Made by a program: the position numbers and the translations under genes. Positions 1-13,352 of a stretch of 37,090 bases of DNA are shown here, piece after piece; positions within the stretch are counted from its first letter, which is position 1; the number at the start of each line of letters is the position of its first letter. Under the pieces are notes generated by a model that saw only the letters and a program-made list of their open reading frames with translations, made no database searches and was not told where the DNA came from. The DNA comes from a virus, in the IMG/VR virus record IMGVR_UViG_3300028045_000042, positions 1 through 37,090 of that record; one strand, written 5' to 3'.

Positions 1-2818
1 AACCTCCTCCTTGATATCCTTGATTAGCCATAGGGCTTTGTCCAGTATATGCATAAGGATTATTTTGATGGTAAGATGTCCAATAAGCATCCCAATCAGT
101 ACCTTGCCCACCTGCTTCAGGTGTAGGCTGTGCTTCAGGTGTAGGTTGTTGACCTTGCTGTCCTTGTCCCATTTGCATAGCTATACTTGGAGGAACTCCC
201 ATTCCTATCATAGCACCTTGTTGTAAATTAGGTAATCCAGGACTTGTTCCACCTGTTAACGCTTGGTGAGGCCCTGGAATACTATTTAATAAAGTATTAT
301 TTCCTCCTGTTAATGCTTGATGTGGTCCAGGAATAGCATTTGATAAATTTTTAAGTCCTTGACCAAATCCTCCTCCTTGTGGTTGAGGTGCAGGTGTTGG
401 TTGTCCTTGTGGTGCTCCTGGTGCTCCTGGTGCTTGTTCTCCTAACCAATTTCCAAATTGTTGTCCTTTATTTCCAAGATTATTTGCTCCATTATTTGCT
501 TGTTCTCCCATAAAATTACCAAACTGTCTTCCTTTATTACCCATCCAACTTCCTGCTTGTCTTTGTGCTCCTTGTGCTTGTGGTCCAAAAGCTCCTTGAT
601 TATTAGCAGCTAAAGCTCCCCAAGGTCCTGTCATAGTGCCTGCTGCGAATGCTGTTGGTATTTGACTAGCAACACCTATTCCTGCTCCTAATCCTGTTCC
701 TGCAGCAGCACCTCCTAATCCAGCAGCAGTACCTCCTGCAGCACCTGCTGCACCTAAACCTGCTCCAGCTAAGCCAAAAGCATGTCTTGGCATTTGTCCT
801 CCATAAGCACGTCTTTGTGGGGGACGCATTCCTAAACTTCCCATCATATCTGGGGTATAGTGCGATCTTGTATTTCTAGGTTGTCCAAAATATCCAGGGG
901 GTACCTGATATTGATAATAATTAGGGTATGATGGAGGTCCTTGATATGCTAAAGAAGAATTATCTTCTTTATTACCTCCTAAAAGATTTTTAAGTAATGG
1001 TTTTGCTAATAAACCTTCTCCACCAAAGATACCAGCAGGGTCTAAAATTCTTTGTAGTAAATTACCTACTCCTCCCATATTTCCTGAATTTCTACCTCCT
1101 CTATTACTTCTAGCTAAGTTATTTACTCCTTGTCCCATATTAATAGCAGCTCCAGTATTTTTTGCAATCTTATCCCAATCTCTATCAGGAGATGATGCCC
1201 AGTTTCCCACGTTATTAAACATGTCTGCATAGCCGTGCTGTGGTAAGTAATTATTCATAGTATTCATATTTTGAGTTTCAAAGTTACTAATATTATTTGA
1301 TATATGGGAAGGTATATTCCCTCCTAATGCATATTTAGATAAAGTACCTCCATATTTATTAGGATTGAATGTTTTAAAAGCATCTTTTCCTGTATAAGGT
1401 TGCCAATGAATTCCTTTAGGATTATACATAGAGTTTAAAGATAAAGGACCTTTTTCTCCTATAAATTTAGCAGGTCTTACAGGTTCACCTGTTGGAGTTC
1501 TAGCCTGTAATTGGTAATCAGGAAAATAGTCTCCTAACATTTTATTATGTTTTGATTGTGCATTTAAACCTTTGTTAGCAAATTGGTCTTTTAAATGTTT
1601 CCATAGTAATGGGTCCATCCCACTTTCACCTTGTACTCCCATTTTATCTACTGGATAATTCTTTCCAGCAAGTTCTGGAAAAAATTCAGACCTAATACTA
1701 GGATTTCTACTCTTAAAAGAAGGGTCTTTAGGATTAGTTATTAATTTATCATCACTATCTTTAAGTAGTTTCCAATCTCCTGGATTAATTAAGTTACCTT
1801 TTTTTCTTTCATTAAGCAGTCCTGCTGTAAATTCTAGTACTTCATCAATGTCATATCTACCACTCTTTATTAAAGTTTCTATAGCAATATCAGAAGCTTC
1901 TCTGTCACTTATAGGCATAGCCATATCCTTATATGCTTTTTTAATCTTATTTACTAAAGCATCTTGTTGCACCATAAATTCTTTTACCTTAAGATTTTTA
2001 GGAGTGTTAAGACTAAATTTACCAGGTTGTTTAATACTACCAAACTCAGCAAGAGCTGCTAAGGACTCACTTAACTCTTTACCTTTTCCACTTTTAAATT
2101 TAAAATCTCCTAAACTAGGAAGACCGTCTTTTTGGTTAATACCTTTACTTATTAAATCATTAATAGCAGAATTTTCATGAGGAAAATAAGAAACTTTTTC
2201 CATATCAATCAAATCCCGCATTTGTTTTTCAGTAGTAAGATCTCCTATATCCCAATTTTTTTCATGTGATAATGCTTTTTCCATCCATTCTGCATTAGAC
2301 ATTTTAGGGTCTGTAAATATTTCTTTAGCTCCTTTTCCCGTAGGGTTCTTTCCCATTCCTGCTATAGGATTTACAGCGTCTAGTAAGAAGTTACCTACCT
2401 TACCTAAGCCTTTTACAGCTGGAGTACCTGGCATTAGTGATGCCCAGAAAGGAACATACTCAGCAGCTCCTGATGCAGGGTAGCCCTGAGGAGGTATTGT
2501 GAAGTTAGGATCTATAGGATTAGCCTCCCAAAAAGCTTTTTGCCTTTCCCCATAAGCTTGATACCGTGCAAACTCTTCTGCGGTAGGGCCCCATTCTTGC
2601 GCATGTTGCAGTTGTTGGGGAGTATAAGAAGCTGCGGCAGCTAATGGGTCTTGAGATTGTATTTGTGCTTGAATAGCAGGGCTATTAATAATCTCTTGCT
2701 CTTGTAAATACTCTTTACTGAGAGATTCATTACTCTGTAAGTTCTCAGGTATAATAATCTTAGGGCCCCTCTCTTCTGAAGGTAACTCTACATCTCTTAT
2801 TTCTAAAGGTCTTATCAT
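1..2818 (-). CDS. Large cargo/ejection-type virion protein, Gly/Gln/Pro-rich (partial, C-terminus outside window)
   Basis: An open frame starts at ATG 2818 and runs without a stop to the window edge, giving 939 residues and no C-terminus. Its ATG overlaps the TGA of the preceding 1305-residue gene (ATGA), which fixes the start. Residues 108-162 match residues 100-154 of the 677-residue protein two genes upstream (42 of 55 identical). Residues 488-502 carry the double-Gly repeat also seen in the 1305-residue protein, with a weaker copy at 671-685. Residues 682-728 form a Gly/Ala-rich hydrophobic stretch. From about 740 on the protein is low-complexity, with two tandem repeats and PTPEA repeats. 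There is no recognisable enzyme domain in the visible part. Its position after the muzzle-like gene is where crAss-like phages keep large cargo proteins, so an ejected virion protein is inferred. Confidence is high for the gene and moderate for the role. Confidence 0.8.
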   Translation of the reverse strand, partial: MIRPLEIRDVELPSEERGPKIIIPENLQSNESLSKEYLQEQEIINSPAIQAQIQSQDPLAAAASYTPQQLQHAQEWGPTAEEFARYQAYGERQKAFWEANPIDPNFTIPPQGYPASGAAEYVPFWASLMPGTPAVKGLGKVGNFLLDAVNPIAGMGKNPTGKGAKEIFTDPKMSNAEWMEKALSHEKNWDIGDLTTEKQMRDLIDMEKVSYFPHENSAINDLISKGINQKDGLPSLGDFKFKSGKGKELSESLAALAEFGSIKQPGKFSLNTPKNLKVKEFMVQQDALVNKIKKAYKDMAMPISDREASDIAIETLIKSGRYDIDEVLEFTAGLLNERKKGNLINPGDWKLLKDSDDKLITNPKDPSFKSRNPSIRSEFFPELAGKNYPVDKMGVQGESGMDPLLWKHLKDQFANKGLNAQSKHNKMLGDYFPDYQLQARTPTGEPVRPAKFIGEKGPLSLNSMYNPKGIHWQPYTGKDAFKTFNPNKYGGTLSKYALGGNIPSHISNNISNFETQNMNTMNNYLPQHGYADMFNNVGNWASSPDRDWDKIAKNTGAAINMGQGVNNLARSNRGGRNSGNMGGVGNLLQRILDPAGIFGGEGLLAKPLLKNLLGGNKEDNSSLAYQGPPSYPNYYQYQVPPGYFGQPRNTRSHYTPDMMGSLGMRPPQRRAYGGQMPRHAFGLAGAGLGAAGAAGGTAAGLGGAAAGTGLGAGIGVASQIPTAFAAGTMTGPWGALAANNQGAFGPQAQGAQRQAGSWMGNKGRQFGNFMGEQANNGANNLGNKGQQFGNWLGEQAPGAPGAPQGQPTPAPQPQGGGFGQGLKNLSNAIPGPHQALTGGNNTLLNSIPGPHQALTGGTSPGLPNLQQGAMIGMGVPPSIAMQMGQGQQGQQPTPEAQPTPEAGGQGTDWDAYWTSYHQNNPYAYTGQSPMANQGYQGGG
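248..544 (-). repeat. Two in-frame tandem repeats in the partial cargo protein
   Basis: Two pairs of coding repeats lie close together. The first pair is 16 residues long, LGNKGQQFGNWLGEQA type, at bases 497-544 and 431-478 (residues 759-774 and 781-796; 12 of 16 identical). The second pair is the exact 11-residue unit IPGPHQALTGG at bases 302-334 and 248-280 (residues 829-839 and 847-857). The DNA copies of the second pair differ at several third codon positions, so the protein unit appears to be under selection rather than freshly duplicated. Confidence 0.8.
643..778 (-). other. Gly/Ala-rich hydrophobic segment in the partial cargo protein
   Basis: About 45 residues (roughly 681-725) consist almost only of Gly, Ala, Leu, Ile, Thr and Val with no charged residue. 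It contains several small-xxx-small spacings typical of helix packing in membranes. This is what one would expect of a membrane-inserting segment in an ejected protein, but a flexible linker is also possible. Confidence 0.5.
1313..1357 (-). repeat. 15-residue double-Gly repeat, copy in partial cargo protein
   Basis: It encodes KYGGTLSKYALGGNI (residues 488-502). It matches the copies at 3679-3723, 5260-5304 and 6361-6405 in the 1305-residue protein. The consensus is basic-Tyr-Gly-Gly-x-Leu-x-basic-Tyr-x-x-Gly-Gly-Glu/Asn-Ile. A weaker copy lies at 764-808. Confidence 0.7.
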
Positions 2819-5800
2819 TGTGCTTCTTCTATTAATTGTCTAATATACTCATTTTGTTTTAAAACGTTTTCTCTTAAATCTATTATTTGTTTACCATATA
2901 ACGGATTCTTTTGCATATCTAATCCTTCTTTAGGTATAGGAACTCCATATGCTTTCTGCATTTGGAAACCATGATAGTCTTCTTCTGTATTAGGAAATAA
3001 ACTTCCAGTACCATTATAGTATTGTAAAGCTAATGCTTCATTGTCTACACTATCTTTGTTAGCCCAAGCTAATTTATCTTTAAGTACATTTATATATCCA
3101 TAAGGGTCAAAGAATTCTAGACCTGAGTCTGCTGCTGTAGAAGATTTTACATGACCTAAATTAATATCATTTTTACCAAGTAAGGTTTCCTGTAAACCAA
3201 CAGCAAGTGCTGTCCAAGGATCAACACCTATTTGATTAGCTTTTTGGATTATATCTTGTACTACTTCTGAGTTATAATTACCTCCCATTAAATCTACATT
3301 AGGATTAATAGTATCTCCAGTAGTCGCTCTTATTACTCTTGGGTCTTCTAATTTAAAAGTATTTGCATAATAATCAGTTTCCCAATCATAATAATCATCT
3401 GCCCAATTAATATCTGTATTATTTTCTAATTCTTTTAGTTCTTTTTCAAGTATTAAGTCTATACCCAAAGTATCATCTTTTTGTCCTCCTACATTTTCCC
3501 ACATACTAGATAGAGTATCTTTCTGCATTTCTATTTCCTCAAGTAATGCTTTATCTTCTAAATCTTGTTGGGCACTTATCATTTGGGCCATTTCCTCAGA
3601 AGTATAATTAGGAGTAGTAATATTTGTATAAGTATTATCTATTGGTGCAGGAGATGGAGGAGTAAGGGGTAAATCTCCTATCTCTCCCCCATTACCATAT
3701 CTATTTAATGTTCCTCCGTACCTATATTCTGGTGTTTGTGCCTGTGTAACACCTAATGCTCCTGCTGTTCCTACTCCTGCTACGCCCCATGCTTTGTTCA
3801 TAGCTTCTTTTAATGAACTTAAATATTTTTCATATGGACCAGCAGTATCAAAAATACTTTTTGCATTTCCTCTTAAGTTTTTAGATGAACTTGCTAAAAG
3901 TTCCCCTATATCGTTGTATTCAATACTCTGTAATTTTTTAACGCTGTCACTATTAAACCATTCGTCAATTTGCGAAGTAGTTAATTTCTTATCTTTAATC
4001 CCTAAGTCATTTCTTATAAGTTTATTAAGCCTGTTAAATCTAACTTGTTGTTCAATAGGAATTTCCAAGTAGGGTGTTTTATCAGTTTCCCACAGCTTTT
4101 GGAGTTTATTTCTTTCAGGTATAGGGGGAGTATGTGTTTTTAATAAGGGGTAAACATCTGCTAAATCATATCCCTGAAATCCTGTCATAGGAGAACCTAT
4201 GTGATCATACTCATGTTCAAGTACTCCTAAGATACTTTTAATTCCTGTATTTTTACTATTTCTATTTATAACTTCTGGGTAAATATCTACAGAAGACTTA
4301 CTCCAAAGTTTATTTATTCCAGTAGGTACTATAGCTCTACCAAAAGGACCTTCTCCTTTTTTAAAATTTAACTTAGCTTCACCTATATTCTTTTTTAGTT
4401 TTTCTACGTTTTTTTTAACTACTGCTGCTGTTTCACCAGTATTAGCCATTCTTCTTTTTAAATACTCATCACTATCTAACCATCTTAATTTACTATCTAT
4501 TATCTCTGTAAACTCAGCATCAAACTCAGGATTCCTCATTCCTTCAGGAAATTCTGTTTTGTTAAGAATATTCTTTGCATAGTCTGCTTGAGGAATAGTA
4601 GGATTAATACTTTTATAAATATTCTTAGCTCCTTTATACCCAGCTTTACCTAATTGATAAGCTAAATTAGGAGCTTCTGTTAGTCCCATTGAAAGTTCCT
4701 CAGCAAGACCTCTAGCAAAAGGCAATACAGTTCTAGCTCCCCAAGTAGCTCCCATAACTGGTACTGCCTGAAGAGCTTGTGCTCCTGTTAATGCTGCCAT
4801 GAATATAGGATCTTCTAATCCATATGAAGCATTTACTCCTCCCCATGCATTTTTATTCCATTGTGCTTGTCTAATAGCATCTTCATCACGCTCTCTTAAA
4901 CCCAACTCTCCTGTAGGATCATTTTTAGCATAGTAGTCTTCGTGGAAATCATATACCTGTTGGTCAGGGGTTTTAAGGTCAGGTGCTATAGGAAGGGTAG
5001 TATTAAAAGAGTTATCTGATACTGTACCTGATGGTTGAGTTCCTCCATGAGCTTCAAGATATTCTTTACGCCTTTTAACCTCAGCTTGTTGAGCAAGTTG
5101 TTGAGCAACAAAAGCTTCTTGTTCTCTCCTTAGGTATTCAGCTTTCTGAGTATTAGTTCCTTCTTCTTGTGGAATATTAATAGGATTAACAGGAGCTTCA
5201 CTACCTACTGTAGATGAATAAGTAGGTAAGTTATATTGTGAGTCTTCATGTGTATGTCCTATTTCTCCCCCATTATGGTAATTACCTAACCATCCTCCGT
5301 ATTTAAAACTATCAGTAACTCTAGTATCCTCTGCATACTTTCCTTTTTTAAAGAAATAGTTTTTGTATTCTTCATAGCTAATTCCTCTAGGAGCTTGTCC
5401 GGGTAAATTCATACTAGCAAAGTTATTACCTCCAGTATATCTTTCATATGCAGCTACATTATTAGGTCTTACATACTCATCTTGTGCTGTACCATCTTCA
5501 ACAGCATATTGAAGATTAATTTTATCAAAATTTAAATCTACATCTTTTTCTTCTATTTTAGAAAGAGAAGATTTATCAGGAGATGGAGGTGCCCAGATAG
5601 CATTACTATTTTGATATTTATCTTTTAAATCTTTAACTATTCCTGGTACTGGATTAATATCATGCCTACCAAGCCGCAGTAATCCAATAGCACCTTCTAA
5701 TGAACCAGTATTCCTAGCATCTTGAGGAATATTAGTTATCTCTCTTGTAAATTCCCCATTAGTAGTATTAGGAAATCCTTCTGAAGGAGGATATACTTTT

Positions 5801-6732
5801 TGAGTGGGGTTTTGGTATTTATCTATTGCCATTATACGTTCAGAGGTTATTTCTTCTGTGTCAAAAGTCTCTATTCCGGGCATCCAACCTGTATCAGAGA
5901 TGGTATCTCCTTCTGCAGACTGCATAACTTCTCTTAACCTTTCCTGTGTCCTATTATTTATATAATCCTTAGTTACTTCACCAGTAGTAAAAACATCCTT
6001 ACCTGTAGGTAAAATAGAATAATCAATTGATCCATACCTAGGTATATATTCTGAATACTGATCTGCATCTCTTAAAATTTGTCCCCTTTCTTCCCTGGGT
6101 TTTCCTTGTATTTCATATCTTATTAAGTTATCATAAGCATATGTATTACCTTTATTTCTCCCTTCCCCTTCAAATTCAGGAGTGGATAAAGGCATGCTCA
6201 TCATATTTTCATTATAAGGATTAGTTTTACTTTTTGAAAAATGAGGATGATTATTCATAAATTTAGCAGCATCTATATAGCTATTATATAATTCTAAACT
6301 ATCATTATACATTTGAGTTCTATAATCAAAATCTGCTTGGTCTTTAGCTACGTATGGTTTTACTTCCCCTCCATTGTCATATCTATTTATCTCTCCACCA
6401 TGTTGAAAATTATATCTAAGACCTGCTTTAAAAAAAGGATTAAAAGTATTTGCTATTTCATTTTCTAAGCCTAGTTTAAGTCTTAATTGATCATTAATAG
6501 GAAAAGTACCTTCTATACCAGCATTCCCTTTCCAATATTTATTCCTAACCTCATTAGATATAGGAGTTATACCATAAAAACCTGCTCCTCCTTTTGGAGT
6601 ATTAAAGCCAGCTCCTCCCATTAAATTACCTTCTCTACGTTGGTTTTGTAGCCACATATATTTTTCAAAAAGAGAAGGTTCTTTTTTTGGTAACTTTAAG
6701 TCAATCTTTTTTTCTTCCTTTTTCTTAGGCAT
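2815..6732 (-). CDS. Multidomain cargo/ejection-type protein with HExxH zincin motif and C-terminal lysozyme-like domain
   Basis: The protein has 1305 residues. Residues 1-30 are Lys/Glu-rich. Residues about 50-109 look beta-rich and end in GLRYNF. Three copies of a 15-residue double-Gly repeat lie at 110-124, 477-491 and 1004-1018. A Q/A/E-rich coiled-coil-like stretch spans about 530-560. Residues 640-690 are hydrophobic. HEYDH at 840-844 fits the zinc-metallopeptidase pattern HExxH; E894 or E944 could be the third ligand. A hydrophobic GVAGVGTAGALG stretch (983-994) precedes the third repeat. Residues about 1153-1290 resemble a soluble-lytic-transglycosylase or glucosaminidase fold, with E1182 in GLQET as the candidate catalytic acid and ALQYYNGTG downstream. 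It starts 4 bases after the 677-residue gene and overlaps the next by ATGA. Inferred role: a virion protein entering or opening the host envelope and acting on host targets during DNA entry. The gene is certain; domain calls are by eye. Confidence 0.85.
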   Translation of the reverse strand: MPKKKEEKKIDLKLPKKEPSLFEKYMWLQNQRREGNLMGGAGFNTPKGGAGFYGITPISNEVRNKYWKGNAGIEGTFPINDQLRLKLGLENEIANTFNPFFKAGLRYNFQHGGEINRYDNGGEVKPYVAKDQADFDYRTQMYNDSLELYNSYIDAAKFMNNHPHFSKSKTNPYNENMMSMPLSTPEFEGEGRNKGNTYAYDNLIRYEIQGKPREERGQILRDADQYSEYIPRYGSIDYSILPTGKDVFTTGEVTKDYINNRTQERLREVMQSAEGDTISDTGWMPGIETFDTEEITSERIMAIDKYQNPTQKVYPPSEGFPNTTNGEFTREITNIPQDARNTGSLEGAIGLLRLGRHDINPVPGIVKDLKDKYQNSNAIWAPPSPDKSSLSKIEEKDVDLNFDKINLQYAVEDGTAQDEYVRPNNVAAYERYTGGNNFASMNLPGQAPRGISYEEYKNYFFKKGKYAEDTRVTDSFKYGGWLGNYHNGGEIGHTHEDSQYNLPTYSSTVGSEAPVNPINIPQEEGTNTQKAEYLRREQEAFVAQQLAQQAEVKRRKEYLEAHGGTQPSGTVSDNSFNTTLPIAPDLKTPDQQVYDFHEDYYAKNDPTGELGLRERDEDAIRQAQWNKNAWGGVNASYGLEDPIFMAALTGAQALQAVPVMGATWGARTVLPFARGLAEELSMGLTEAPNLAYQLGKAGYKGAKNIYKSINPTIPQADYAKNILNKTEFPEGMRNPEFDAEFTEIIDSKLRWLDSDEYLKRRMANTGETAAVVKKNVEKLKKNIGEAKLNFKKGEGPFGRAIVPTGINKLWSKSSVDIYPEVINRNSKNTGIKSILGVLEHEYDHIGSPMTGFQGYDLADVYPLLKTHTPPIPERNKLQKLWETDKTPYLEIPIEQQVRFNRLNKLIRNDLGIKDKKLTTSQIDEWFNSDSVKKLQSIEYNDIGELLASSSKNLRGNAKSIFDTAGPYEKYLSSLKEAMNKAWGVAGVGTAGALGVTQAQTPEYRYGGTLNRYGNGGEIGDLPLTPPSPAPIDNTYTNITTPNYTSEEMAQMISAQQDLEDKALLEEIEMQKDTLSSMWENVGGQKDDTLGIDLILEKELKELENNTDINWADDYYDWETDYYANTFKLEDPRVIRATTGDTINPNVDLMGGNYNSEVVQDIIQKANQIGVDPWTALAVGLQETLLGKNDINLGHVKSSTAADSGLEFFDPYGYINVLKDKLAWANKDSVDNEALALQYYNGTGSLFPNTEEDYHGFQMQKAYGVPIPKEGLDMQKNPLYGKQIIDLRENVLKQNEYIRQLIEEAQ
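3679..3723 (-). repeat. 15-residue double-Gly repeat, copy 3 in the 1305-residue protein
   Basis: It encodes RYGGTLNRYGNGGEI (residues 1004-1018). It lies between the hydrophobic GVAGVGTAGALG stretch and a Pro-rich linker leading to the lysozyme-like domain, so it marks a domain border. Confidence 0.75.
4201..4215 (-). other. HExxH (HEYDH) zinc-binding motif codons
   Basis: These bases encode H840-E-Y-D-H844 of the 1305-residue protein. The motif is preceded by hydrophobic residues (ILGVLE), the usual context of the active-site helix of zincins. HExxH alone occurs by chance at some rate; the helix context and the later PIEQQVRF block (E894) raise the odds that it is real. Confidence 0.6.
5260..5304 (-). 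repeat. 15-residue double-Gly repeat, copy 2 in the 1305-residue protein
   Basis: It encodes KYGGWLGNYHNGGEI (residues 477-491). It is followed by a His/Asp/Ser-rich linker and the Q/A/E-rich coiled-coil stretch. Confidence 0.75.
6361..6405 (-). repeat. 15-residue double-Gly repeat, copy 1 in the 1305-residue protein
   Basis: It encodes QHGGEINRYDNGGEV (residues 110-124), slightly divergent from copies 2 and 3. It directly follows the beta-rich N-terminal segment that ends in GLRYNF. Confidence 0.7.
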
Positions 6733-6736
6733 AATT

Positions 6737-8770
6737 TTATTCTTGTTCAGTATTTAATGCTCCTACTCCTAATACTCCTGTTCCAACAACTCCTAAAGCT
6801 TTAATCTCTGCTTTTTTATCTTTCCAGTTTTGTGGTATATCAAATTCATACCAAGAGTTTCCTTTAGGGTCTGTTATTAATTTTGCTTCTACTCCTAAAG
6901 TTTTCTTAATCATTTTAGGAGCTTTATCATATTTCTTAAGTATAGTCTGATCAGATGAGCCATATACAGGAAGCTCTGAATCCAAATTTGCTTTTGCTTT
7001 TCGTATTCTATTATCTACGTCTGTTCTAATTTTGTCATATTCTGCCTTAGATAATTTCTGCCTACCTCTAGTAGTTCTACTAAAATATTGCGGAGGACTA
7101 ACAGTATCATCTGCTACTACTATTCCTATTTTATTAGGCTCTTTGCTATTTCTGCCTATCCGTATAGTAGTTATCCCATTCTCATGGGTTATTACTCCTT
7201 CAGCAGACCTTAAGCTTTCGCTTAATTGTTCCTTAGTTAGCGGAGCATATCCTTCTATTTTAACCGCAGTTTCTGCTGTAGGGTATCTTACTTTAGATTT
7301 ACCTGCAACAACAGCTTGGACTACACTTTCCTGAAGTAATCTTTCTTGATGATTTTTTCCTAATAATTGTTTTTGCTCCCAATTTTTTAATTCATTAGCA
7401 CTCATTTTATTTATATCAGTTTGACCAACTAACATATCTTCATACGATTTTGGGGACATTATAGTACCATCAGGTAATTCATAATTACCATCTGGCAGTT
7501 TTCGTGCTTGTGATTGTATATCCGCCATATTACTTAGATGGTCCTTATTCATATCTAAACTTTTTAATGCTTGTTCTTTAGTATGTTTTAATCCTCCTGA
7601 TTGATAAAAATCAGACTGAGCCTCCATTACATGAAATACATCCGGCTCATCTTTAGATACAAAACTTCTAGTATGACCTAAATCACTATGGCCTGGAAAA
7701 TGATCATCAGCCCCTCTCCCAAAATTATCTTTATTACTAAATGTAGTAGACTCTAAAGATATCATATCATTAGGAACTCCTGGTGGTGCTGCTTGTACAG
7801 GTCTTCCAAACATATCTAGGTGAGGTTTAGGAAAAGGGACAGTATACCCTAAAGCTTTCATACCATGTAACGCATCTACACCAGTACTTCTTCTTTCTAA
7901 TGGTACTAATTCTCTTGATACAGCATCTTTAAAATCATTATAGTCTATATTCTTTTGCCCAGCAAACTGTTCGTCTAATACTTTATTTATAATATATTTA
8001 TCTGAAGCTGCTGTATTTCCTTTGTTAGCTAAACTCCTAATATTGTTTACGTTTATTTGGCCTGTTTTAGAAATTTGTTTTTCTAATGGGGAGCCCATCA
8101 TAGTAGACCCCAACTGTAGTTGATTTCCTGGAACATTTATTGACCATGGTACTGGATATACATCTGGATGTGTTCCTGTTCCCACAAGGTTATACCCTTG
8201 TGACATAGGATGGGTACTTGATAAGGAACTATGAGGGAATTCTGTTGGCATAAGACCTTTCCACATATTATCTATTTGTTGCCCAACAGGAATCTTAGGT
8301 TTTGCAAAACCACCAACAGGATTTTTTCCCATTCCTCCTATAGGATTTAATGCATCTAATAGGAAGTTAGCTGGTTTTCCTAATCCTCTTATAGCAGGAG
8401 TTCCTGGTAGTAATGATGCCCAAAAGGGAACATAATCTGCTCTTCCTGAAGCTGGATATGCAGAAGGAGGAATGATACCCGTGGCAGCATACCACTCAGC
8501 TTCATCCTGTAATTTTTTTGTATAAGCATCATTTTCAAATTCTTGTGCTTCTGCAAAAACCTCTTCTGGTTGGTAAGCCTGCCCACCTCTCCAGTCTTTA
8601 GTCTCAGCTATCTTTTTATTATTTACAATAGTTTTAAATAATTCTCTTTCATAAATATCTTTAGGAGATGCTTCTCTGGCATAAGTAGATTCTATTTCAG
8701 AACCAAAGTCTGATATTGTAGGTAATTCCCCTAACCAAGATGGCTTTTTATTTTTTGGTGTTTTAGGCAT
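6737..8770 (-). CDS. Cargo-type virion protein with polyvalent-protein-like EAQSD domain
   Basis: The protein has 677 residues with a basic N-terminus. Residues 100-154 (PASG, YVPFWASL, GTPA, NFLLDALNP blocks) are shared with the partial cargo protein at the left edge. Residues 355-395 contain HTRSF and VFHVMEAQSDFYQ, resembling the 'H-R ... EIQSDWHQ' core of a domain found in phage and plasmid polyvalent proteins. Later blocks fit the same domain as I remember it: NHQERLLQESVVQAV and VRYPTAETA (473-500), then ILKKYDKAPKMIKKTLG with a WYEFDIP strand (610-646). The C-terminal 25 residues are hydrophobic and Gly-rich (GVVGTGVLGVGAL), like residues 983-994 of the 1305-residue protein. It lies 25 bases after the muzzle-like gene. 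An ejected effector is inferred; the biochemical activity of the EIQSD-type domain is not known to me. Confidence 0.8.
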   Translation of the reverse strand: MPKTPKNKKPSWLGELPTISDFGSEIESTYAREASPKDIYERELFKTIVNNKKIAETKDWRGGQAYQPEEVFAEAQEFENDAYTKKLQDEAEWYAATGIIPPSAYPASGRADYVPFWASLLPGTPAIRGLGKPANFLLDALNPIGGMGKNPVGGFAKPKIPVGQQIDNMWKGLMPTEFPHSSLSSTHPMSQGYNLVGTGTHPDVYPVPWSINVPGNQLQLGSTMMGSPLEKQISKTGQINVNNIRSLANKGNTAASDKYIINKVLDEQFAGQKNIDYNDFKDAVSRELVPLERRSTGVDALHGMKALGYTVPFPKPHLDMFGRPVQAAPPGVPNDMISLESTTFSNKDNFGRGADDHFPGHSDLGHTRSFVSKDEPDVFHVMEAQSDFYQSGGLKHTKEQALKSLDMNKDHLSNMADIQSQARKLPDGNYELPDGTIMSPKSYEDMLVGQTDINKMSANELKNWEQKQLLGKNHQERLLQESVVQAVVAGKSKVRYPTAETAVKIEGYAPLTKEQLSESLRSAEGVITHENGITTIRIGRNSKEPNKIGIVVADDTVSPPQYFSRTTRGRQKLSKAEYDKIRTDVDNRIRKAKANLDSELPVYGSSDQTILKKYDKAPKMIKKTLGVEAKLITDPKGNSWYEFDIPQNWKDKKAEIKALGVVGTGVLGVGALNTEQE

Positions 8771-8795: not shown

Positions 8796-11700
8796 TTACA
8801 TTGGCACATCCATGTAATGAGTTATAATATCGTGTATTACTAAACGTTTATCTTCATCATCTATTCTAGTGAATTCTAATTCTATTTGTATATTAGGATT
8901 TCTTAATCTACTATTTGTTCCACTAGTATCTCTAGGTATAGCAGTTCTCCAAGTCCTCATACGTCTTTGAACATTGACATCTGGAGTAAGAATAATTGTT
9001 CCTGTATTTTGATATTCATTAAAATATTTAGCTTGAGTAAGTGTCTCATTAAATACATCTGAACTATTTTCATCTTCTACTTCAGTAAAAAATTCAAGAT
9101 TATTAAATACTTTAGTATGGTCTCCTTTAGGATTTATTATTAAATCTAATTTACAAGGAAAGTAAGTCTCATAAAATGTAGTTCTATCACTATGGTCATG
9201 TATGTATATAGTATCTTCTATAGGTAAATCACTATTTGGTGTAGTACCAATTATAATATCATTCTGAGAAAATATATTTCTACCATCATTTACATAATGT
9301 CTAGGAAAATGATCGTAGAAAGATGAGAAGGCATCTATGTTTTCATTGTAAACAATAGTTTCATTAAAGCTTCTTCCTTTAATTGCCTGAGATTGTCCCT
9401 CTTCTATATTAGAAACATATCTTTCTTTTGGATTACTATGAAAAGTCATAATGATTTCATTAAACTTATTATCATAAGTACCAGTTACTCCTTGAAATAG
9501 TATTGGATTATCAGTATTTAATAAACCATCTGCTACAGTATTATTAAAGAATGATGACATATGTTTAGAATTTGAGAGAATTTCTAGCTTATTAGAAAAT
9601 CTACAAAACTTTCTATGTACAGCATCAAACCAATATATTGCTCCTACACCTTTAATAACTCCCCATTGATGAAAAGCTCCTGTACTATTAGAGATATAAG
9701 TATAGTCTGTTATGTTTCTACCTGTACCCATTTCAAGTTCTGCGCCATCAAGAGACTGAACAACTGCTCTTGGATTTACTGAAAGTTGTCCAAAGCCTTT
9801 ATCTTGCCACCACATAGCACGGTCATTAAGTATGGCTAATTTATTAATAGGACCATATGCACCATCTACATCTTTATAGTTAAGAGGTTTTATAGAGCTC
9901 CAAGAATCAGAAAACTCCCCATTAGTCTTAGGTTGTGAGATATATACTCTAGTATCATACTCTGCTATTAGATTAGCTCCTTCACCAGTAATTAAATATT
10001 TCTGTAAAGTCTTTTCTCTATGATACATAATAGGTATTAAGTAGTCATCTTGTTTTTCTTCTCTTAAATCTATATCACCTCCAGCACCTTGAATAAGGTT
10101 ATTAAGATGAAATCCTACTCTCATGTCTGTATTAATAATACCACAAATAGGATATATTTTACCTATAATAGGAGTGGCTACTTCAGACTCTACTCTTTCT
10201 CCAGTAGCAGGATCTCTTTCAGAATAGGAATAAAGTTTCTTTTCATCAAAGGCATTTATATAAATATCTCCTCCATATACCTCAGAACCTACATCAGAAT
10301 CATCAGGGTTTACTCTAGCATAATGTCCAGTACTAATGTATTCAGTATTTAATATATCATTGTAGGTAGCCCCTCCATATTGTTTATCTAAGAATCTACA
10401 TAAATCTACAATAGCTGTTGCTCCTACTCTAGCTATTCCCCCAAACAAAATTGGTGTACCAAAACTATATGCCCCATATGCCCCATCATTATTAGTTTGA
10501 GATTGATTATTATTAGGACTCCATCCACGAAAACAAGAATTACCAAGAAGCTGAAATAATTTAGTATTAGTATTATGTACTATAATAGTCTGACATCCTG
10601 GAGAAGCTAAAGTACCTTCATTAGTTGGATTAAGAAGAGGAAGTATTAAATATCCTCTATTATCAAAAGTTGTATTTCCAATATCAACTTTAATTTGATT
10701 AGCTCCAATTTTTAAAATGTCAGTAATTTTTCCATCTCCGTAAGCAGCATTAGTAGATGTCCCATTTATAGCAAATTCATGTCTTTGAAATCTATCTACT
10801 ACATTAATATTAGCTAATGATTTAGAATATCTAGATAGATCATTTCCCACTAATGTAGGAGTTACATCAGGAGTTTCTGCATCTTCTGCAGTACATATTT
10901 GAGAATATCCTGCTACGGGTTTAAAATAGTAAGCTTCCCAATCTGCATCTCTATCATCATCTACATAGTCATCTACTTTGGCCCCACTTATAAATTTAAG
11001 GTCTGGAGAATCAAAAGTAGCATATCCCGGAGTTGTTATGTCTGGAGTATTATTATTAAGACCATCATCAACTCTAGTATAATTATATAAAGTATTTCTT
11101 CTGTTATCTGAATCACTAGGAGTAGGGTCAGGTACTGATGCTTCTCTTACTTCATTTAAAGCTCCTTGTGCAATAATAGTTCTATCTTTCTCTCTTCTAG
11201 GGGCTCTAACAATAGAGTATCCTGAAATTTGGTCAGAGATACTAGATACATCTACATCAAACCTTATTCCTAAAGCAGTTCCCATAGTAGCATTTTTTCT
11301 AAAAAGATCTGTAGATAAAGGAATATTAGATATAGGATCTGTTGAAGGCCCTGCTTCACTATGAAATTGTGCAGAATAACTTGTATTGCCAGATACACTA
11401 TAAATGTCTCCATCAGAGGGCATACGTATATCTCCAATCCATTTAACTTCAGAAGGTCTTCCAGTAAGAGAATAAAAGACAATACCAAAACGGTAAATTT
11501 CATCTTTCATATATCCTTTAAAATATCCTTCAATTCTATTGTTTTTATAGTTTTGAAATCCTGGACCAAAGTCTGTTACAATAGTTTCATCAGCTCTTTG
11601 TCTTAAAGGGTAGTTTAATGTACTCTGTATTGGAGAATTAACTATTGGAGTTCTGTCTGGATATAATGGAGTTCCATCTCCTATATTAAATTCTTCATTA

Positions 11701-13352
11701 CTAGGAGCAGCTTCTCCAGATTGGTCAAGTACTAAATTCCTTCCAATAAATCTATATGAGATATTAGGACCTGTTCCTCCAATAAGGGCACTATCTCTTT
11801 GATATCTATATGGATTAGTACGTACATCAGTCCTATCATCATTATGAGGATTAATAACATCTTTCTTTAAATCTACGCCCCAATTTTTTTGACCATACGT
11901 ATATGCAGGAAATATATAAGTCTGAGTAGTATCTGCTCTAAATCTATATGCTCTAGCATCAAAGTCAAGAGAAAAAGCCGCCTGCTTAATATTTCCAAAC
12001 AATAATTGGTTGTCCTTAACCGCCATTGTTTTTACCCTTTCAAAGTCTATGTCATAAGTAAATAAGTCAATTAATTGAACTTTTTGTTTATCTCCTAAAG
12101 AAGATAAAGTAAATTCAAAAGTAGGGTCATTACTTAATAACTGTTCTTCTACAAGGTAAGCGAGATAGTTATCAGGGTCTTTTTCATAAATTGCATAAAC
12201 ATATATTTTATCATATCCCTTTGGGATATTTGGTACAAGGTATCTTAAAGATTTATTACTTCCTACAGTAGTTAGTGGATAATTTATATTTTCAGCATTA
12301 GTATCTACTCCTCCTGAATTAAAATCATCACTAGTTATAGGAATAGCTGCAGAAATAGGAGCAGTTGTAGTAGTAGAGCCTCCAAATTTTTCTAGTTTAT
12401 ATGTAAGATATAATATTCCTGTAGGTAATGCTCCACCATCTTGTTCTTCTAATCCTGCTAAAGCTGGATGTAATTGAGCTTTATTATTTAATAATAATTC
12501 ATCAGGAAATAATGAAAAAGAATTTGGATTAATAACATCTATCTTTCTAGGAGGACTAAAATTATCTGTCCAATATACTAATTGCTTTTCTACATTTTCA
12601 TAATTACCTATAGCTTCTATAGGATGCTCAAGGCTAAAATTTAATTCACCATAATAAGCTAAAGTTAATGTATTAACTTCAATAGGAAATTCTACATCAT
12701 ATTCTAAAATCCATATCTGCCCCATACCTGCTTGGTCTTGCGCAGTAGAAGTATCATTAATAGTAAATAAAATTACTTTATCTCTTATATTAGTAGAACC
12801 TATTATAGTAAAGTTTTTTTGGTCTTTAATGACTTTAAAAATACCATATTCCGCAGGACCAGTTTGCATTAAAGGATGTATAGGACTTTCTATTATTAGT
12901 CTATCACTAGTAGCAGAACGGTGTAAAATAAACTGTTGTTCAGGAGGTAAGTTATTACTATAAGTAGTTACAGCACTTTCTATGTTATCTAAATATTTTT
13001 TAGGAGTATCAAACTCAGATAGAATATCAATTACAAAAGGACTAGCATAAGGAGCATAAAAGACAATTGGACCACTACTAATAGGATTCAACATAATTGT
13101 AACTTGCTCACTATTTAAAGTGCCAGAATCTTCATAAGCTTTTTCAGAGGGAACTATTTCTAGAAATCCATTTAATTCTGGAAAGGAAACTTTTGGAAAG
13201 TTACCTTTAATGTTTTCCATAGCTCCCGTAGATAATCCAGTATCTGTGATAGGGCGTAGGTTTCTAGAATCTTTATATTGGTTTTGAGGATACTTCTGTT
13301 TAGAAGTATCTTGGTTCATTCCTTTTATAAAAGTATTCTTATGCCCTGCCAT
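8796..13352 (-). CDS. Tail stabilisation/muzzle-like protein
   Basis: This 1518-residue protein is the largest complete gene here. Its N-terminus (NTFIKGMNQDTSK, PQNQYKDSRNLRP, then TGLSTGAMENIKGN) matches what I remember of the crAss-like family annotated as tail stabilisation protein, the counterpart of the muzzle at the tail end of crAss001. The body is rich in beta-strand-like segments with many Asp, Asn, Gly and aromatic residues and no transmembrane segment or enzyme motif. It shares one base with the upstream ring-protein gene (TAATG) and is followed by cargo genes, the same order as ring, muzzle and cargo in crAss001. The role would be to close the short tail and hold cargo until release. 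The family call is fairly strong and the detailed role is inferred by homology. Confidence 0.8.
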   Translation of the reverse strand: MAGHKNTFIKGMNQDTSKQKYPQNQYKDSRNLRPITDTGLSTGAMENIKGNFPKVSFPELNGFLEIVPSEKAYEDSGTLNSEQVTIMLNPISSGPIVFYAPYASPFVIDILSEFDTPKKYLDNIESAVTTYSNNLPPEQQFILHRSATSDRLIIESPIHPLMQTGPAEYGIFKVIKDQKNFTIIGSTNIRDKVILFTINDTSTAQDQAGMGQIWILEYDVEFPIEVNTLTLAYYGELNFSLEHPIEAIGNYENVEKQLVYWTDNFSPPRKIDVINPNSFSLFPDELLLNNKAQLHPALAGLEEQDGGALPTGILYLTYKLEKFGGSTTTTAPISAAIPITSDDFNSGGVDTNAENINYPLTTVGSNKSLRYLVPNIPKGYDKIYVYAIYEKDPDNYLAYLVEEQLLSNDPTFEFTLSSLGDKQKVQLIDLFTYDIDFERVKTMAVKDNQLLFGNIKQAAFSLDFDARAYRFRADTTQTYIFPAYTYGQKNWGVDLKKDVINPHNDDRTDVRTNPYRYQRDSALIGGTGPNISYRFIGRNLVLDQSGEAAPSNEEFNIGDGTPLYPDRTPIVNSPIQSTLNYPLRQRADETIVTDFGPGFQNYKNNRIEGYFKGYMKDEIYRFGIVFYSLTGRPSEVKWIGDIRMPSDGDIYSVSGNTSYSAQFHSEAGPSTDPISNIPLSTDLFRKNATMGTALGIRFDVDVSSISDQISGYSIVRAPRREKDRTIIAQGALNEVREASVPDPTPSDSDNRRNTLYNYTRVDDGLNNNTPDITTPGYATFDSPDLKFISGAKVDDYVDDDRDADWEAYYFKPVAGYSQICTAEDAETPDVTPTLVGNDLSRYSKSLANINVVDRFQRHEFAINGTSTNAAYGDGKITDILKIGANQIKVDIGNTTFDNRGYLILPLLNPTNEGTLASPGCQTIIVHNTNTKLFQLLGNSCFRGWSPNNNQSQTNNDGAYGAYSFGTPILFGGIARVGATAIVDLCRFLDKQYGGATYNDILNTEYISTGHYARVNPDDSDVGSEVYGGDIYINAFDEKKLYSYSERDPATGERVESEVATPIIGKIYPICGIINTDMRVGFHLNNLIQGAGGDIDLREEKQDDYLIPIMYHREKTLQKYLITGEGANLIAEYDTRVYISQPKTNGEFSDSWSSIKPLNYKDVDGAYGPINKLAILNDRAMWWQDKGFGQLSVNPRAVVQSLDGAELEMGTGRNITDYTYISNSTGAFHQWGVIKGVGAIYWFDAVHRKFCRFSNKLEILSNSKHMSSFFNNTVADGLLNTDNPILFQGVTGTYDNKFNEIIMTFHSNPKERYVSNIEEGQSQAIKGRSFNETIVYNENIDAFSSFYDHFPRHYVNDGRNIFSQNDIIIGTTPNSDLPIEDTIYIHDHSDRTTFYETYFPCKLDLIINPKGDHTKVFNNLEFFTEVEDENSSDVFNETLTQAKYFNEYQNTGTIILTPDVNVQRRMRTWRTAIPRDTSGTNSRLRNPNIQIELEFTRIDDEDKRLVIHDIITHYMDVPM

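Follow-up and report, generated by a model that had tools for sequence, protein, structure and literature searches.

Crassviruses are kin of the commonest human-gut viruses, and their particles hold long passenger proteins. The sequence analysed here, referred to as the window, is the whole 37,090-nucleotide stretch of the IMG/VR virus record IMGVR_UViG_3300028045_000042, and represents part of the genome of a divergent crassvirus. Its block of Crassvirales markers comprises the muzzle, major capsid, portal, terminase and ring proteins, with Pfam matches to crAss_MUZ (E 3.4e-158), Crass_capsid (E 3.1e-150) and the Ring 1, 2 and 3/4 families; portal and terminase were recognised by PHROGs. Three genes follow the muzzle gene on the minus strand. 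The proteins of the second and third are filed as cargo protein 1 (C1) type by position and by a recurrent glycine-glycine motif, hereafter the joint. This assignment is provisional, because PF25725 (crAss_CARG1) was not found in the visible window sequence, the last protein being cut by the window edge. It is gene position that suggests that the window cargo proteins are carried in the virion. Correcting an earlier reading, the third protein starts at about 2818 and runs past the left window edge, with its C-terminus outside the view. The proteins encoded at 6737-8770 and 2-2818 (minus strand) also share a paralogous N-terminal domain, 43% identical over 129 residues, that includes a hydrophobic stretch. 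The features of this region, with joint scores from a profile not trained on the window, are as follows.

8796..13352, minus strand: muzzle gene (crAss_MUZ, E 3.4e-158), which places the window in Crassvirales
6737..8770, minus strand: first post-muzzle gene, 677 residues, without joint (ORF and profile score)
2815..6732, minus strand: second post-muzzle gene, a 1305-residue putative C1-type cargo protein with three joints (ORF list and gene order)
6406..6582, minus strand: N-terminal module, apparently beta-rich from its sequence alternation, ending directly at joint 1
6361..6405, minus strand: joint copy 1, QHGGEINRYDNGGEV, score 18.2
5260..5304, minus strand: joint copy 2, KYGGWLGNYHNGGEI, score 23.1
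4201..4215, minus strand: HEYDH, a zincin-like HExxH signature (signature only, no Pfam family matched) in a module ending before joint 3
3679..3723, minus strand: joint copy 3, RYGGTLNRYGNGGEI, score 25.0, preceded by a hydrophobic stretch
2911..3300, minus strand: C-terminal domain, earlier called lysozyme-like, without Pfam or PDB sequence match
2..2818, minus strand: third post-muzzle gene, a putative C1-type cargo protein with 939 residues visible, cut by the window edge
1313..1357, minus strand: joint copy 4, KYGGTLSKYALGGNI, score 18.9
764..808, minus strand: joint copy 5, a single unit (half copy), AYGGQMPRHAFGLAG, score 18.0

The initial annotation described a 15-residue double-glycine repeat in the two cargo proteins. 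All five copies that it listed translate as claimed on the minus strand, and its strict pattern has exactly four matches in the six frames of the window, all within the two cargo ORFs. With the window-free profile, the three copies of the 1305-residue protein exceed the best of 500 shuffled copies (17.8), and the two copies of the 2..2818 protein exceed the best shuffle for that protein (17.7). The fifth copy, which had been described as weaker, is genuine, because its window-free score of 18.0 lies above this shuffled maximum. The motif is thereby confirmed as real and more than chance. The 677-residue first cargo ORF has no joint, its best profile score being -1.7.

Apart from its joints, the 1305-residue protein has no convincing blastp homologue, with scraps only against the post-muzzle proteins of relatives, and Pfam and PDB searches assigned it to no family. 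Neither it nor the third ORF found a match among 50,697 phage records, and in IMG/VR the sole match was one near-identical contig, found by the 1305-residue protein. The lysozyme-like identity proposed for 2911..3300 was not confirmed by Pfam and PDB sequence searches, which gave no match, and the 6406..6582 module is absent elsewhere in the set of related loci (numbered L here) except in the near-identical contig L001. This 7765-base contig, from another metagenome, represents a near-identical population with 99-100% protein identity, and joint 1 is kept in it. The window's own modules had no detectable homologues in the searches made, so their borders are putative. Residues 654-931 of the 2..2818 protein align piecewise to the cargo protein of L017 (best piece E 1e-5) through AYGGELPQHGFG and TNWDNYWNSYWQSNPHAY, with copy 5 aligned to the former, and joint 3 has a counterpart of like sequence and context at L017 residues 499-514. 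Beyond the aligned part, the C-terminus of L017 is CARG1-like by eye only, and the window protein is cut just before the equivalent place. As a separate observation, post-muzzle proteins contain more zincin-like HExxH signatures than shuffled sequences do (10 versus 0.1 for the loose form), with sites at 4201-4215 (minus strand) in the window, at residue 347 of L017, in L074, L067 and L090, and in L004 (phi14:2 gp081, two sites). In C1-type proteins such a site usually sits between two GG joints, and the module bearing it is possibly a phage-carried peptidase module; YHEAFH is also present in RNA-polymerase-size proteins.

For a wider comparison, about 80 related crassvirus loci were gathered by muzzle alignment, and reference phages were taken from an annotated collection. 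The loci are fragments, some of them from closely related contigs; ORFs were called between successive stop codons, and the ranking of genes downstream of the muzzle is approximate. Across them the motif reads [FYM]-A-[Y]-G-G-x-[LMI]-x-x-Y...GG and is nearly confined to one or two post-muzzle genes. Its doubled form occurs 73 times in post-muzzle ORFs versus 4.2 in shuffled sequences, with no enrichment upstream (3 versus 4.5) or in muzzles (6 versus 4.5), these counts not being dereplicated. A 15-column profile, counted after dereplication at 60% identity, recorded 196 instances in 73 of 160 proteins. Above a score of 15, there were 146 matches in 147,066 post-muzzle residues versus 2 in the muzzle and upstream proteins, which total 217,808 residues. 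As the sequences behind this first profile were themselves post-muzzle proteins, the analysis was run again with no locus shared between training and testing, and gave 0.63 strong matches per 1000 residues post-muzzle versus 0.0055 elsewhere. The restriction to genes after the muzzle gene, which the initial annotation had set as a check, is thus borne out, and so is the rarity of the motif in unrelated proteins, neither T7 nor Bacteroides phage B124-14 having a match above 15.

Within the post-muzzle region, joint density falls from 3.56 per 1000 residues in the first gene to 1.41 in the second and 0.18 in the third; the joint-bearing genes are the second and third in the window and mostly the first and second in relatives. 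Third and later post-muzzle genes, gp46-like and RNA-polymerase-like where identified, carry the motif at background rate, and the idea of a generic tag for all cargo does not hold. The human-gut Suoliviridae are nearly devoid of the motif (0 to 1 matches in cr50, cr52, cr53, cr56 and cr118), so C1 function across the order cannot depend on it. By its sequence distribution, the motif belongs to Steigviridae and environmental lineages. A blind scan of 2.9 million IMG/VR contigs with a DNA pattern for [FY]AYGGNM placed 8 of 9 matches in C1-type genes; such genes were identified by a CARG1 domain, by lying downstream of the muzzle gene or by preceding a gp46-like gene. The strict window-form DNA pattern was found in eight contigs, in all cases out of frame, and these were set aside as chance. 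In cellular genomes, [FY]AYGGNM gave 60 scattered matches, none with CARG1, and on reading 0 of 60 had the doubled form. The open-licence full texts that were searched yielded no description of the motif.

On sequence grounds, the joint-bearing proteins are of the C1 type, for which gp45 of phiCrAss001 is the reference. The gp45 copies lie at residues ~207-212, 261-266, 331-335, 389-394, 425-437 and 559-564, and recurrent GG joints are a C1 feature that the window proteins share by profile. In the phiCrAss001 virion, gp45 extends from the portal to the tail barrel; residues 425-552 sit on the portal wing as a compact domain, and residues 214-245 form a helical segment in the tail barrel (PMC10172136). 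The published structure resolves only small parts of C1, whose N-terminus is presumed to leave first at ejection (PMC10172136). PF25725 spans gp45 residues 424-555 and also matches environmental relatives, and in gp45 this domain, observed docked to the portal, has one of the copies as its N-terminal edge. An iterative search detected CARG1-type domains in 62 post-muzzle ORFs, in an alignment that opens with the motif (GGxLTxYxxGGxHE). After dereplication, 53 proteins had the portal-docking domain PF25725, and 51 of these carry the motif. In 19 of 44 proteins a joint is also found close to the C-terminus of CARG1 (7.1 expected). The AlphaFold model of the L094 domain matched the 126-residue gp45 structure chain (7qog chain M) with E 2.3e-6 and a TM score of 0.71 on the target, and has the gp45 fold. 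Its leading motif was predicted with intermediate confidence (block mean 73), and a stand-alone copy fell in blocks of about 50 or below. Two further observations concern the build of these proteins. In L027, L028, L029, L033, L055, L070, L085, L090 and L004, two neighbouring genes each encode part of CARG1: the domain breaks near profile position 80, its first part closing one protein and its helical part opening the next. A GKFTxYCGGxVTxxCI mini-module occurs in phiCrAss001 gp45 and in the C1 of DAC15 (L015, L168); it is tandemly duplicated in DAC15, with GG joints flanking each copy.

C1-type proteins hold small recurring modules, among them b (IHIKPxxRGKFT...FARNAxxW), c (IKRADGSYSxRGLWDNI) and e (KLPxEILKARVEAHMSPE), whose order varies: CARG1-e-c-b in L053 and c-e-b-CARG1 in L044. 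Across five families, 19 of 23 modules have GG directly before and after them, as against 0.64 expected and a best of 4 in 2000 random placements; the limits of 5 residues before and 9 after were fixed once examples had been seen, which makes the P value somewhat flattering, although the margin is large. Module b is bracketed in 11 of 11 cases. In the AlphaFold model of L053, which matches no solved fold, YANGG and YGNGG lie in stretches below 50 and YREGG is intermediate, with helical modules between them; module b reaches a pLDDT of 95-96. The proposed location at domain borders is upheld by this bracketing and by the low-confidence gaps between helical modules in L053, and the same gaps, together with the stand-alone L094 copy at a pLDDT of about 50 or below, place the motif outside folded modules. 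The 15-mer is a joint between modules of C1-type cargo proteins. Beside these counts, a longer mini-module, IKRADGSYSxRGLWDNIRANxGSGKxPT, was seen shuffled among the cargo proteins of L044, L043, L053, L080, L032 and L084. The family phrog_16028, a recurring phage virion-protein module, takes in the L084 version of module c and a stretch of L029 related to it; unlike the joint, this family is a module, and it has no known function.

Close homologues keep the joint core better than its flanks (0.91 versus 0.45 in L027/L033, 0.61 versus 0.31 in L056/L061 and 0.86 versus 0.42 in L050/L057). Over all 208 homologous pairs, which are non-independent, the values are 0.37 and 0.28; that the gap is so modest probably reflects misalignment of distant pairs. 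Conservation lies on both sides of the GG. Copies are more alike within a genome (0.230) than between genomes (0.152; permutation maximum 0.175), and flanking segments have no such effect (0.063 versus 0.062); the most extreme cases are L091, which carries eight copies of the type GG[NDKHY]LPxYQSS, one of them imperfect, and L017, whose copies are of the GG[DNE][LI]P type. At shared residues, identical codons occur at 0.536 versus 0.508 predicted from codon usage, and the choice of Gly codons at joints equals that elsewhere. Likeness within genomes without much codon excess indicates constraint at the protein level and not recent DNA copying.

The reading that we favour, with a probability of roughly 0.6, is that the motif is a flexible inter-module joint of crassvirus C1 (gp45-type) proteins and their window equivalents, serving to thread cargo through a channel. 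C1-type proteins are strings of small, independently folding modules in an order that differs by phage. Between the modules stands an aromatic-x-GG-x-aliphatic joint, in many cases doubled to YGGxLxxYxxGG, and GG would provide a flexible turn at each joint. The chain would lie extended from capsid through portal to tail with single modules docked, and at ejection it would be pulled through the narrow channel module by module. Our analysis establishes the restriction to these genes, the inter-module position and the protein-level constraint; portal docking and the tail location are established for phiCrAss001 gp45 (PMC10172136), and the threading role of the joint, with any clip, is what we infer. 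The hinge suggested by the initial annotation finds support in the position of joints in low-confidence gaps between modules, with the reservation that the published structure shows the leading CARG1 copy to be ordered rather than flexible (PMC10172136). The joint probably does more than bend, because a mere linker needs neither conserved aromatic and aliphatic residues nor a genome-specific consensus. These conserved residues suggest that it may also pack on, or clip to, a virion surface.

A tentative alternative, which we hold to be possible if less probable, makes such a clip the main function: the joint would be a short linear motif that binds a putative recurring site of the tail-ring proteins or the 12-fold portal, anchoring one cargo chain at many points along the channel. 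Both resolved docked segments of gp45 start beside joints (AYGGPL at ~207-212 before 214-245, and AFGGWLNTQGG opening 425-552), but this agreement comes from a single protein and was spotted only in hindsight, the joint at ~207-212 is itself outside the resolved segment, and stand-alone copies are predicted to be disordered. The genome-specific likeness of copies without clear codon excess would be expected if a partner in the same virion read them. A docking code, in which a genome-specific motif of up to eight copies per genome pins the chain at successive portal and tail rings for stepwise release at ejection, seems to us rather unlikely. The docking tag of the initial annotation accordingly keeps some ground, from the copy that edges the portal-wing domain of gp45 and from the hint of a partner in the genome-specific consensus, and loses its generic scope.

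The motif might instead be a processing site, with a virion protease cleaving the cargo protein at GG to release its modules. GG is frequent at cleavage sites, the motif sits between modules, and several C1-type proteins, the 1305-residue one of the window included, bear a zincin-like HExxH; yet HExxH is missing from most joint-bearing proteins and conservation flanks GG on both sides. Moreover, gp45 425-552 was modelled in the virion with GG427-428 and GG434-435 included (PMC10172136). The cleavage site that had also been proposed is thus disfavoured for one copy, and we regard cleavage as improbable in general. Equally little credence goes to joints without a function of their own, as the mere ends of co-copied modules or as DNA seeds for shuffling. 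Shuffled module order between phages is what such hitch-hiking would produce, but one consensus joins unrelated modules, including the orphan ones of the window, and close homologues hold on to the joints above their flanks. The ordinary Gly codons and near-expected shared codons give no sign of DNA-level conservation, and on this codon evidence recombination seeds and recent duplication are rejected as DNA-level causes.

The flexible joint has its nearest known setting in C1 itself (gp45 of phiCrAss001, PF25725, PDB 7qog), with which it shares the gene position after the muzzle in related phages, the opening of the CARG1 domain with a joint (GGxLTxYxxGGxHE...) and, in many phages, another joint after it. 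The window proteins differ in having no CARG1 in their visible part, orphan modules, and joints more regular than those of gp45. The internal core proteins of podoviruses, T7 gp14, gp15 and gp16, are likewise carried in the virion and ejected ahead of the DNA (analogy drawn in PMC10172136), but T7 is without the joint motif. The finding touches the question of how megadaltons of protein are packed in the crassvirus head and tail and then fed through a narrow channel. With a sequence rule for module borders, domains can be delimited for expression and structural studies, and C1-type proteins can be identified even when homology searches fail, as they do for the window. The joint also offers a specific element to mutate.
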